DNA of 64,000 bases, taken from Cognatishimia sp. 1_MG-2023 (lineage in GTDB: Bacteria > Pseudomonadota > Alphaproteobacteria > Rhodobacterales > Rhodobacteraceae). Location of the stretch: positions 124,001 to 188,000 of the forward strand of contig NZ_JAUORX010000005.1 in assembly GCF_030548175.1 (NCBI RefSeq). The letters run 5' to 3'. Under the pieces are notes generated by a model. That model saw only the letters and a program-made list of their open reading frames with translations, had not been told where the DNA came from and ran no database searches. Both the position numbers and the translations under genes were made by a program. Positions within the stretch are counted from its first letter, which is position 1; every line of letters starts with the position of its first letter. Positions 28,045 through 49,183 of this stretch are shown piece by piece.

Positions 28045-28926
28045 ATGAAAAATCTAATTTGGGTCGTTGTTGCAGCAGCCGTGGCTGTCGTAGCGTACAT
28101 GCAGTTTGGTTCTAAAGGTGGCGAAGACGCCATGGAAACTGAGGCCGCGGCCGAAGTGACTGCACCTGCGCCAGTTGCTGAAGAAGTTGTCGAAGAGGCA
28201 GCTGAAGCGATGGAAAAAGTCGAAGAAAAAGCCGAAGGCGTTATGGAAGCTGTTGAAGGCGCAGCAGACAGCGTGATGGAAAAGGCTGAAGGCGCTGTCG
28301 AAGGCGTCATGGAAAAAGCTGAGGGCGTTGTAGAAGGCGCGATGGAAAAAGCCGAAGGTGCCGTTGAAGGCGCAATGGAAAAAGCAGGCGACGCGATGGA
28401 AGCGACCACCGAAGCTGCAACTGACGTTGTAGAAGGTGCTGCAGAAGTTACTGAAACTGCGACAGAAATGGCGACAGACGCCGCTGAAGGTACAGCCGAA
28501 ATGGCAAAAGACGTGACCGAAGGCGCAACTGAAATGGCAACTGACGCCGTTGAAGGCACAACAGAAATGGCCAAGGACGTGACTGAAGGCGCGACCGAAA
28601 TGGCAAAAGACGCAGCCGAAGGTGCAACTGAAATGGCAACCGATGCTGTTGAAGGCGCGACTGAAACTGCAGCTGAAACAGCGGTAGAAGCAACAACTGA
28701 GGCAGCGGCAGAAACTGCAACTGAGATGGCTTCTGAGGGTGTATCCGCATTGGATCTGTTGACACCTGAAGGGTTCAACTTGGAAAAAGTTGGTGAGCTG
28801 ATCGACGGTTCTGAGCTAGGTGCGATTCAGAAAACTGCGTTGAAAGCAGCGATTGAAAAAGCAGGCGACAATCCTGAGCTTTTGAAATCTGCTTTGGATG
28901 CGGCGAAATCTGCATTGGGTCTTTAA
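28045..28926 (+). CDS. membrane-anchored protein with sixteen 11-residue repeats
   Basis: A 293-residue protein. One N-terminal membrane helix (residues 4-21) is followed by an acidic Ala/Glu/Val linker. Residues 56-231 then read as sixteen tandem 11-residue units such as MEKAEGAVEGV and KDVTEGATEMA. The C-terminal region (about 235-293) is less repetitive (LDLLTPEGFNLEKVGELIDG and a helical end). Hendecads of this kind occur in LEA proteins, apolipoproteins and synucleins, where they form amphipathic helices or right-handed coiled coils. It is very poor in aromatic residues. ATG 28045 follows GGAGAAG. The function is unknown; an envelope spacer, lipid-surface or stress-protection role is possible. 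Confidence 0.75.
   Translation: MKNLIWVVVAAAVAVVAYMQFGSKGGEDAMETEAAAEVTAPAPVAEEVVEEAAEAMEKVEEKAEGVMEAVEGAADSVMEKAEGAVEGVMEKAEGVVEGAMEKAEGAVEGAMEKAGDAMEATTEAATDVVEGAAEVTETATEMATDAAEGTAEMAKDVTEGATEMATDAVEGTTEMAKDVTEGATEMAKDAAEGATEMATDAVEGATETAAETAVEATTEAAAETATEMASEGVSALDLLTPEGFNLEKVGELIDGSELGAIQKTALKAAIEKAGDNPELLKSALDAAKSALGL
28210..28737 (+). repeat. 33-bp tandem coding repeats (16 units)
   Basis: The DNA repeats with a 33-bp period that matches the 11-residue protein repeat. Early units carry ATGGAAAAAGC(T/C)GAAGG; later ones GAAATGGC(A/G)A. The copies have diverged but keep the frame exactly, with no odd-length unit. Confidence 0.8.
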
Positions 28927-46335: not shown

Positions 46336-47067
46336 TTAGGGTTTTGGTAGGGCAATGCCAAGGTCTGTTAGCTGCGATAGCAGTAAAACAACAGCGAGGC
46401 TGACCAAAATGGCCCATCCAAAAGAAGCAAGTGTTCCGATGATAACATATTCTGAGCGTTTGCGGTTTTCTGCAGTGGAGCCTTCTTTTGGGGTCTCGAA
46501 CCTTAGGACGGATTTTGCAGCAACCAGAAAGCCGATGCCGATAGGCAGACCTGCCAGAACCAACACGTAGATCAGGCCGCGTTCCAGAAAACCGATCATT
46601 GCGCCGCCGCCGGGCAAAGAGTCTTTGGAAAAATCCGATCCGTATTGCGACATCAGGATGCCAACCGCAAAGCCGCCAGCACGGGTGGCAAAGATGGCAC
46701 CAGAGGTCAGGAGCAGAGCGTGGGGCAGCCATTCGGGTGCCGTGGCCCAGAGGCCTGTCGCCCAAAGGGTTGGGGCTGCGTAGGCGATGATGGCGAGGGT
46801 TGCCAGGTGGATCAGTTGATCGCCTAGATGGGCGTTGATGGTGTTAGGACGGCGGGCCTTGATGGCGTCGGTTGCGATATGCAGTGCGGTCAGGATGACA
46901 ACCGGCGCGCCGAAGGTTCCGGTGAGGGCGGTGGCCGTCGCGAAAACGATGAGACCGTGATAGGCCAGATAGGTGAACTTATGCTTATTCTGCGCAACTT
47001 TGGTTGATTGAAACACATAGTCGGCCAGCACATGGGCGGCAAAGAGAGCGACGAAGGTTTCAATCAT
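46336..47067 (-). CDS. DUF3307 membrane protein
   Basis: A 243-residue protein with six or seven predicted helices. The family marks are at the N-terminus: LFAAHVLADYVFQ (His, Asp, Gln), AYHGLIVFAT, LHIATDAIKAR and DQLIHLATLA. These buried His/Asp residues suggest an intramembrane active site or ion path. The family has no known function and is often paired with SatD-type genes, as here, by an 8-bp overlap. See the finding on this pair. Confidence 0.85.
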   Translation of the reverse strand: MIETFVALFAAHVLADYVFQSTKVAQNKHKFTYLAYHGLIVFATATALTGTFGAPVVILTALHIATDAIKARRPNTINAHLGDQLIHLATLAIIAYAAPTLWATGLWATAPEWLPHALLLTSGAIFATRAGGFAVGILMSQYGSDFSKDSLPGGGAMIGFLERGLIYVLVLAGLPIGIGFLVAAKSVLRFETPKEGSTAENRKRSEYVIIGTLASFGWAILVSLAVVLLLSQLTDLGIALPKP

Positions 47068-47701
47068 TTTGTTTTTCCAGAAGGTGAAGCGCTAGGTACA
47101 GGCTTTGGTAGCCCGCTGCGTTTAATGTTCGCGTTACAACCTGGCGGGATTTGTTTAATATTTTGGCTAGATCAGTGAAGCTTAGATTGGCATTTGGTGC
47201 TAACATTTGTGCCATGGTTTCTGCTTGTGCTGGCGTCCAGTCTTCGGCGATGAAATCTGCGAGTACTGTTGCTGCGGCCTCTGCGCCTGGTTCAGAAAAA
47301 GCAAGTTTGGGGGCAAAGCTTGTCATCGATTTTAGTGTTTCGAGTGCTCGGCCGGATTGGATGAAAACTGTATCGTTTCGGTCGTTTAGGTCGGGTGTGT
47401 TGGCGTGTTGAAGTTCGCCAGTTGCTATTCCGATGTAGGTGTTAAACTCAGGTCCGAGTGATTTGAGCTTTGCTGTGAAAATGAGTGCTGTACGTAGTGC
47501 GTATTGCGGTTTGTTGAGAATAACTTGCCAACCATCGCCTCGGTGGCGGGAAAATTGAAGAGAGGCTTCATGCCAAACGGCCATGTCTTGGGCCGTGTCT
47601 TGTAGCGTGCGAAATGCGTGATCCATTTGCGCTTTGGTCAGCGCAGAGGATTTAACCAGATCTCCGGTGAGAACTGTGGCTTTGTGTGTGTCATGTCTCA
47701 T
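47060..47701 (-). CDS. SatD-like protein: cyclase-like N-terminal domain and C-terminal helix-turn-helix
   Basis: A 213-residue protein. The N-terminal part has GDLVKSS (residues 13-19) and RHRGDGWQV (52-60), then YIGIATGELQH. This pattern recalls class III nucleotidyl cyclase folds (metal-binding Asp, then GDG) and SatD proteins. The C-terminal part from residue 173 (LSFTDLAKILNKSRQVVTRT) looks like a DNA-binding helix-turn-helix. ATG 47701 follows AGGTG; a GTG 6 bp upstream is also possible. It overlaps the DUF3307 gene by 8 bp and stands beside a 30-bp repeat array that it may bind. Enzymatic activity is not shown. Confidence 0.65.
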   Translation of the reverse strand: MRHDTHKATVLTGDLVKSSALTKAQMDHAFRTLQDTAQDMAVWHEASLQFSRHRGDGWQVILNKPQYALRTALIFTAKLKSLGPEFNTYIGIATGELQHANTPDLNDRNDTVFIQSGRALETLKSMTSFAPKLAFSEPGAEAAATVLADFIAEDWTPAQAETMAQMLAPNANLSFTDLAKILNKSRQVVTRTLNAAGYQSLYLALHLLEKQND

Positions 47702-47716
47702 GTGCACCTATAATGG

Positions 47717-47822
47717 GGTGCGAAATGCAAAACGCAACTTAAATTGGGTGCGAATTGGGTTATGCACCCCTTTTTAGGTGCGAAATGGGTTATGCACCCA
47801 AAAATAGTTGCGAAGGAGCAAC
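47717..47822. repeat. 30-bp-period repeat array upstream of the SatD-like gene
   Basis: GGTGCGAA begins at 47717, 47747 and 47777, and GTTGCGAA at 47807: four starts exactly 30 bp apart. Units 2 and 3 continue identically for most of their length (TGGGTTATGCACCC). Each unit contains an inverted repeat (GGTGC...GCACC, or GTTGC...GCAAC in unit 4). The array fills the gap between the glpQ terminator and the SatD-like start. Confidence 0.9.
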
Positions 47823-47823
47823 G

Positions 47824-47852
47824 AAAACGGCCCCAAATAGAATTGGGGCCGT
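47824..47852 (-). terminator. Rho-independent terminator after glpQ
   Basis: The 10-bp stem ACGGCCCCAA/TTGGGGCCGT with a 6-nt loop is followed on the minus strand by TTTT. It lies 26 bp after the glpQ stop and just before the repeat array. Confidence 0.85.
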
Positions 47853-47878
47853 TGTAAACAGTATTTAGATTAGAAGCG

Positions 47879-49087
47879 TTAAGAGTTCGGGGTGCCCATG
47901 CAGTTTGCATAATAGGTGACCGTCGCTGGCCAGTCAGAGAACATACCTTTGATGCCCACGTCCTGTGCAAGCACATCGAGTAGTTCGAAATACATGGAGT
48001 CGTTGTTGGTGGTGTCTTTGACCGACTGGAAATACCAACCGCCGCCATTTGCCAATGGGCCAGAGCGTTCTAGCGTCCATGTGATCAGGTTTAGGCCTGC
48101 AGCTTTGGCTTCGGTGGCATAGGCAGATGGGACAATCTTGTCGTTCTCTGTTGTCACCAACATCCACATTGGTGGTGCGATGTAGTTAACACCCATTGCT
48201 TTTAGATCAGCCATAGAACGGCGGAATGTGGATGGGTCGTTATGGTCAAAACTTTCGTCATTATAGCTGTCGTCTAGGAAGACAGCTTGTTTGCCGAACT
48301 CAGGCTCTGCTTTGATCCAATACAGCACGTCATCCAAGTTGAAGGATTGTGCGAAAACGTCAGAGGCTGGGATGCCTGCGGCTTTGTATTCGTTGATCAA
48401 AGCTTGAGCGTAGTCTTCTTGGGTAAAGCCATCAAAGGGCATCTCAACAGATGGGGATTTAAGCTCTGGTGTGAATTTGGCGCCAAGGTCTTTGAACAAT
48501 GCGATGGATTCCGCATGAGTCATGACTGTTCCATTGGTCGCGTAAAGGTCTGTGCGCCAGCCCGCGGTGCCGTCCAAGTATTCTGCAACAGACGTCGCTT
48601 TTGCGTTTGCTGCATCCATCTTGGCGTTCAGAGATTTGAACTCTGCAAGTGTGATGTCTGATGTGCGGCATTCTGCGGAGGCTTTGTTGTCGCCGTTTGC
48701 AGCAGTAAATCCGGCGGTGCAGTTTGCGGCCAGATCAGTTGCCAGAATGTTGGTTGTTGTGTGCAGGTCATTCTGCGCGTGGCGGCATACCAGTTTTTTG
48801 TCTTTAGTGAATGTAACGTCACATTCCAAAATGCCAGCGCCCATACGCGCCGCAGCTACGTTGGATTCTACGGTATGTTCAGGGAACATCATCGGCGCGC
48901 CACGGTGGCCGATAGAGAATTCAGATTGTTTGAATTCCATGTTTTGGCAAGACTGCAATTTGCTTTTGAGCGTGCCGTCGGCCATTTGGTCGATCAGGTA
49001 ATAGGGACGTGGGCCCAATTCGACTTCGGCGGCCATAGCAGCCGCCGGAACAAACGCCAAAGCGCTAATGATAAAATTGCGAAACAT
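47879..49087 (-). CDS. glpQ: glycerophosphodiester phosphodiesterase, secreted
   Basis: A 402-residue GDPD-family enzyme that frees glycerol-3-phosphate from glycerophosphodiesters. A signal peptide (residues 1-20, ending AMAA) exports it. The catalytic stretch is [17 protein letters not shown] with the metal-binding Glu in [12 protein letters not shown]. It is longer than E. coli GlpQ (358). ATG 49087 follows GGAGACG. It is a single gene with its own terminator. The C-terminal [14 protein letters not shown] region is typical of the long bacterial type. Confidence 0.88.
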
Positions 49088-49183
49088 GTTTCGTCTCCGT
49101 GTGTAAAGATGCACGGAGGTTTTCACATATCTGCGACAGTGATTTGATGGTTCTGTTTCAGTTAGATGTCAGAACCTTAACGC

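Follow-up and report, generated by a model that had tools for sequence, protein, structure and literature searches.

Upstream of a small two-gene operon of Cognatishimia sp. 1_MG-2023 lies a conserved array of four phased dyads that, on comparative evidence, is a real operator array, and with a probability of about 0.85 the two-domain regulator encoded beside it binds these dyads as its own operators and thereby shuts the operon. Comparison of homologous loci finds that the array is conserved, that its geometry is nearly constant, that the letters of its half-sites covary with the recognition helix of the adjacent protein and that a -10-like core is overlapped by its last member. Positions below are those of the window, the whole stretch of 64,000 nucleotides that was analysed.

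In the window GGTGCGAA starts at 47717, 47747 and 47777, and GTTGCGAA at 47807. TRF calls a 30-bp period at 47747-47814, and the claim of an earlier note on this DNA, that four repeats with an exact 30-bp spacing precede an operon, holds. The unit is a dyad of 18 bp, GCACC-N8-GGTGC, with two arms reading GCAAC/GTTGC. Four such dyads, starting at 47704, 47734, 47764 and 47794 and so exactly 30 bp apart, occupy 47704-47721 (dyad 1, gene-proximal and read with the minus strand), 47734-47751 (dyad 2), 47764-47781 (dyad 3) and 47794-47811 (dyad 4), the last three having no strand assigned. The array ends 2 bp short of the ATG, at 47701, of the regulator gene (minus strand, 47060-47701). Its other bound is a perfect 11-bp inverted repeat followed by minus-strand TTTT (47826-47853, minus strand), probably the glpQ terminator though not among the calls of a terminator scan, and the placing of the array between that terminator and the gene start, as first proposed, stands. 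At 123 homologous loci the distance from a forward arm to the reverse arm after it is 12 nt in 270 of 300 neighbouring pairs, a count that is partly circular as half-sites were derived with a fixed 6-nt core, while the reverse-to-forward distances are spread (16, 17 and 18 nt in 23, 71 and 73 of 230). Because the one distance is fixed and the other spread, the unit is taken to be the 18-bp dyad; the inverted repeat GGTGC...GCACC pointed out in the earlier note is made up of one site's right arm and the left arm of its neighbour, a register off by one arm. When the window was scanned for chains of dyads in 819 overlapping stretches of 156 nt, the array scored 14. The runner-up, at 7, belongs to this array as well, and no stretch outside it scores above 6.

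The array is kept in form, not in letters. By a score rule, two to five sites are present at 123 of 140 distinct homologous loci (two in 36, three in 57, four in 25 and five in 5), which answers the check originally suggested, a search for repeats at homologous loci, their absence being what would have counted against the idea. Spacings at the 123 loci are 27 bp in 2 cases, 28 in 27, 29 in 118, 30 in 97 and 31 in 1, so that 242 of 245 fall at 28-30 bp, and at 97 of the 123 the last site starts 17-22 nt upstream of the start codon. The commonest half-sites are GCAAGC (28), GCAACC (26), GCACCC (12), TCAAGC (10) and GCAAGT (9), and the letters vary by lineage, with GCAACC, GCAAGC, TCAAGC, GAAAGC, GTAACC and TTAGCC all represented. 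The 17 loci outside the 123 are 14 that fail the score rule, L118 and L164 included, together with L097 (HTH out of frame) and L098 (truncated), which do have arrays and belong to an earlier 77-locus set, and L116, whose two sites were read by eye. Eight of the 14 loci that have the gene and by the score rule no array (14 of 140) carry Gln186, namely L048, L055, L056, L076, L077, L080, L089 and L094; of the nine Gln186 members of alignment A2 only L081 has an array.

A set of 90 loci was examined by further measures. Self-similarity of the upstream 130 nt gives z values of 8.3 at lag 28, 19.1 at lag 29 and 3.5 at lag 30, and perfect dyads with 6-bp arms occur at 71 of the 90 loci against 461 of 2189 control windows. 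Against a null made by first-order Markov resampling, not by exact dinucleotide shuffling, the chain score is above the 95% level at 80 loci, above the 99% level at 69 and above the null maximum at 54; 41 of the 90 exceed the maximum, 9, of 1201 control windows of real DNA.

The regulator, a distant SatD relative of 213 aa, gives in Pfam a weak match to a MarR-type HTH only. A profile of 15 homologues has as its top PDB match the class III cyclase Ma1120 (E 0.0023, residues 8-97), with the C-terminus matching HTH proteins; with 88 homologues in the profile the top match is a MarR-type regulator (0.0046), and Ma1120 drops to third place (0.0078). The alignment to class III cyclases spans residues 5-98 and includes D14 and D56, each kept in 87 of 88 homologues and aligned to the metal-binding aspartates of the cyclases. 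For the N-terminal domain (residues 5-105; 47387-47689, minus strand) we infer from this a class III cyclase fold. Class III cyclases have a transition-state Asn/Arg pair; at the place expected for the motif, residue 114 is V, T, E or I and 55 of 88 members have Arg at residue 118, so the pair is not evident there, and none of the 25 Pfam families listed for the 88 members is a cyclase family. Six weak whole-genome matches of the 15-homologue profile were examined: PF00211 is present in four, a fifth is a true SatD and the sixth gives no match to a cyclase at E 0.01. The HTH is closer to models of MarR and of sigma-70 region 4, and its recognition helix (residues 184-192; 47126-47152, minus strand) covaries with the half-site letters.

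Correlating the residues of a regulator with the letters of its sites is an established method (PMC8222616, PMC5045206). When each half-site position was compared with 204 protein columns, positions 1, 2 and 4 were matched best by residues 186, 187 and 188 (z 23, 17 and 14 respectively), and positions 5 and 6 both by residue 191 (z 31 and 9), position 3 being nearly invariant. Arg186 is present at all 104 loci with G at position 1, and 16 of the 19 without G have no Arg there, the exceptions being L049, L117 and L122. For position 5, Lys or Arg191 accompanies C at 49 of 49 loci and is absent at 72 of 74 without C (L059 and L117 have Arg191 all the same). Gln187 goes with C at position 2 at 109 of 110 loci and is missing from 9 of the 13 without C, leaving L044, L046, L047 and L154 as Gln187 loci that lack the C. 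The rule for position 4 is loose, with Ala188 at 85 of 98 loci with A and absent from 18 of 25 without. Read by eye, L081 (ACAAG) and L116 (ACAACC; outside the 123) both have Gln186. In the first 77 loci the winners for positions 1, 2 and 4 were the same, while for position 5 Y89 ranked ahead of 184, 191 and 192, in that order, and for position 6 the best column was G57. Y89, in the N-terminal domain, is still a close second for position 5 in the larger set (z 29 against 31). K184 was rejected as determinant of position 5, since it leaves 10 exceptions where residue 191 leaves 2; one locus, L171, combines K184 with G.

Counted over the 123 loci on a tree of their N-domains, the changes number 7 for position 1, 5 for residue 186 and 8 for the pair; 8, 3 and 8 for position 2 with residue 187; 18, 15 and 27 for position 4 with residue 188; and 5, 5 and 6 for position 5 with residue 191. 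With Y89 they are 5 for the position, 3 for the residue and 7 for the pair, so Y89 changes less in step. Well-supported independent pairs come to 2-4 per comparison (3-4 for positions 1 and 5), and none of those at positions 1, 2 or 5 runs in the opposite direction, with some ties and too few pairs for significance in a sign test. The covariation argument rests on which columns win, because ancestry affects all 204, yet the four winners fall within six consecutive residues of the HTH. Conservation and the match of letters to recognition helix thus support the original suggestion that the neighbouring HTH protein binds an operator array here, and the array is very likely read by that protein.

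Judged on position and phasing alone, the dyads would suit any dimeric regulator and could in principle be operators of another host protein, with the neighbouring HTH protein a bystander. That is very unlikely given that the letters follow the recognition helix of the adjacent protein, that no array was found in five examined genomes that lack the gene and keep its neighbours or partner, and that the single-dyad pattern is not enriched in the genome of origin (27 matches, 30 in the control), where only the four array members cluster. With those same counts a regulon elsewhere in that genome is unsupported.

A tandem pattern of GCAA type has 26 matches in 22 of 394 genomes, the control giving 1, and this module accounts for 23 of the 26, of which 22 precede the regulator and one lies between it and the DUF3307 gene (L060). 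At L060 that second, two-site array lies between the regulator stop and the DUF3307 start, directly before DUF3307, which suggests that the DUF3307 partner can be a separate target. Three tandem matches lie elsewhere, in G416, G207 and G091. The one in G091 (L195; G091:C7:111245-111291) is an orphan two-site array that, with its flank, resembles L131; a search of the genome gave no regulator, and it is probably the relic of a lost module. The five genomes with a long DUF3307 come from six chosen by eye among the matches listed, L206 being excluded because of its weak match. None has a regulator match at E 10 in the stretch searched, and in the 272 nt upstream the best chain scores are 5, 6, 5, 5 and 7 (control maximum 9), that is, no array. 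Three of the five (L202, L203 and L204) retain both DUF59 and the Fe-S carrier.

Where the last site abuts the start codon its core often resembles a -10 element (39 of 97 loci, against 3 of 245 inner sites), by a list of hexamers composed after the sequences had been viewed; TAnnnT occurs in 43 of 97 last-site cores and 25 of 245 inner ones. A Shine-Dalgarno-like tetramer is present at 8 of these 97 loci, but at 16 of the 26 whose last site is further up. The simplest reading of these sequences is that transcription would begin a set distance away from the last site, in most cases without a leader, with the last dyad over the -10 and an arm of the previous one near the -35. In the window dyad 1 has the -10-like core CATTAT at 47710-47715 on the minus strand, and the gene-side arm of dyad 2, TTGCG on the minus strand, is at the place expected for a -35, a putative promoter role. 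A sigma-70 scan of 47000-48000 gave one promoter-like site, away from the array, at a rate equal to that in shuffled sequence. Since the -10-like core is inside the last dyad and a Shine-Dalgarno is usually absent, most of the array would lie upstream of the transcript start, which speaks against the dyads being leader RNA structure, an attenuator or thermosensor. They could fold as hairpins, but a hairpin needs no covariation with an HTH and there is no Rfam match at E 1 in 46900-48100, so this explanation is scarcely credible.

According to the preferred reading, autorepression, the four dyads would be operators for the protein encoded directly downstream, with its cyclase-like sensor domain and HTH. 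One dimer would sit on each dyad with one HTH per half-site, and the period of 28-30 bp would line up neighbouring dimers along roughly one face of the DNA and so allow cooperative binding. The gene-proximal site would cover the -10 region and the transcript start and an arm of the preceding one would be near the -35, and occupancy would therefore shut the operon off. The cyclase-like domain may act as a sensor that binds a nucleotide or metal and makes no cyclic nucleotide. Actual binding, repression over activation, cooperativity, a ligand and a role for the DUF3307 partner are thus what we infer from the comparison. The adjacent protein might instead bind the array and activate the operon, or do both depending on its ligand state. 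Several sites do extend upstream of the promoter-proximal one as in activator arrays, but the last site is on a -10-like core and ends beside the ATG at 97 of 123 loci, a position that usually blocks polymerase, and activation is accordingly the unlikely alternative.

The second gene of the operon encodes a DUF3307 membrane protein (46336-47067, minus strand) and overlaps the regulator gene by 8 bp. Among 90 loci the neighbours are DUF3307 at 88, the Fe-S carrier at 82, DUF59 at 78 and GlpQ at 7, sought in stretches of about 3.6 kb, so that the absences are upper bounds. A glpQ-like gene (47879-49097 of the window) sits between DUF59 and the regulator, and because GlpQ is found at just 7 of 90 loci it looks like a lineage-specific insertion. 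An overlapping two-gene operon, patchily present and with plasmid copies, has the look of a toxin-antitoxin module in which the DUF3307 membrane protein would be the toxin and the regulator an antitoxin that controls its own expression, and satD of Streptococcus pyogenes is reported to be accessory yet essential where present (PMC11323703). Against this, the long DUF3307 persists without recognisable regulator in the five examined genomes, the partner keeps H, D, Q and K residues that resemble an enzyme site, and one fixed order of DUF59 and Fe-S-carrier genes holds at 68 of 90 loci, which together make such a module quite improbable. A chromosomal location among conserved housekeeping neighbours, with no replication gene in the surrounding frames read, leaves almost no chance that the repeats are replication iterons or a partition site, for all that phased repeats beside the gene of a DNA-binding protein, and a sub-threshold match of its HTH to the ParB-type TIGR00180 (E 0.038), would suit one. 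On a Sphingomonas insulae plasmid (L118) the regulator and DUF3307 pair, with no array by the score rule, is beside genes annotated as a TIR-domain protein, a Pycsar effector and a nucleotide cyclase. A defence system was rejected as a reading, a PADLOC scan leaving the two window proteins unmatched, with L116 and L120 as weak matches among those scanned.

Matches to the regulator were found in 15 of 60 relatives, the genome of origin included, and in 90 of 394 genomes of the same family, the six weakest at E 1e-7 to 3e-4, of which five were examined and G192 was left out. A class-wide draw gave 4 of 289, three from the same family and a fourth, L111, that is a cyclase. A single-protein search of genome contigs confirmed no relative, the SatD of L116 had no match among plasmids and phages, and genus searches round two informative genomes added one locus, L114.

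The earlier description of the protein as SatD-like is apt for a distant relationship only, since the window protein does not match Pfam SatD (PF16264; cut-off 29 bits) at E 0.1 and that model matches 7 of 88 homologues, weakly (best E 0.004). By sequence the family is linked to SatD through the intermediates L116, L120 and L117, whose scores with the SatD and the own-family profiles are 42.2 and 54, 24.5 and 114, and 22.5 and 127 bits. Pfam SatD is present in 3 of 249 genomes of the phylum, two above the cut-off, and upstream of these genes 18-bp dyads can be read by eye, with half-sites TGACCC (L115), ACAACC (L116) and TCACAT (L117). L115 and L117 also pass the score rule, the last site of L117 being 113 nt from the start, and TGACCC sites are likewise seen by eye at another SatD, L209. 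Arrays with a 28-bp spacing are present in Vibrio lentus (TTAGCC) and in two Pseudoalteromonas records (GTAACC); Segatella copri passes the score rule weakly and fits the code poorly, and Sphingomonas insulae does not pass. The partners in L115 (2142-2570) and L116 (2116-2493) are without DUF3307 and share with other partners a C-terminal membrane stretch of IGxLER ... AAKS ... EYxxxGTLxS type; in Pfam one is unmatched and the other has a sub-threshold dockerin match, no curated family reaching its cut-off. Whether all this belongs together is an evenly balanced question. SatD and its relatives would then be widespread, undescribed one-component repressors with a class III cyclase fold turned nucleotide or metal sensor, each reading a self-encoded array of 18-bp dyads 28-30 bp apart by a simple code in which residues 186, 187, 188 and 191 set letters 1, 2, 4 and 5. 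Each would control a membrane partner whose constant part is the C-terminal domain (without Pfam family in the two DUF3307-free partners), the geometry being kept from Alpha- to Gammaproteobacteria while the letters change freely.

Autoregulatory phased operators are already known; what is new is the regulator family, its cyclase-like domain, the lineage-changing code and the partner. By analogy the nearest working counterpart is NrdR, a repressor on palindromic boxes that is reported to bind best with integer helical turns, commonly three, between box centres (PMC12051234). The two systems share palindromic sites about three turns apart, and the regulatory domain of NrdR binds nucleotide, where a nucleotide ligand is only proposed here. 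NrdR differs in combining a Zn-ribbon with an ATP-cone, in place of a cyclase-like domain and HTH, and in using a box pair at ribonucleotide reductase operons rather than two to five sites at its own gene. The window protein is not itself an NrdR, with no Zn-ribbon or ATP-cone match in Pfam at E 0.1. SatD is alike in that L116 and L120 match both profiles and that four Pfam SatD-type loci have similar upstream dyads by eye, and differs in that the window protein is below Pfam detection at E 0.1. Likeness to class III cyclases (PF00211; Ma1120) consists in the aligned N-terminal domain with both aspartates, and the difference in the lack of a Pfam cyclase match among 88 members and in the Asn/Arg pair that is not evident. 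Regulators of Actinobacteria in which a cyclase homology domain is joined to a LuxR-type HTH (PMC3466318) have the same kind of pairing, whereas here the HTH is small and like that of MarR or sigma-70 region 4 and an operator array stands at the regulator's own gene.

In the open-access literature on SatD and DUF3307, among the matches listed (PMC8504454 and PMC11323703 included), no such array is described. SatD-type proteins are almost unstudied, despite the status of the S. pyogenes gene in the report cited above, accessory yet essential wherever it is present. If they are cyclase-fold repressors with operator arrays of their own, the targets they repress and the ligand that releases them become testable. 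A regulator with what seems to be one dedicated target can change its site freely, and the code is therefore readable from sequence and checkable by single-residue swaps, which makes this set of loci a clean natural experiment in protein-DNA co-evolution. Elsewhere in the window, 28207-28726 holds imperfect tandem repeats whose lengths, 33 and 66 nt, preserve a reading frame.
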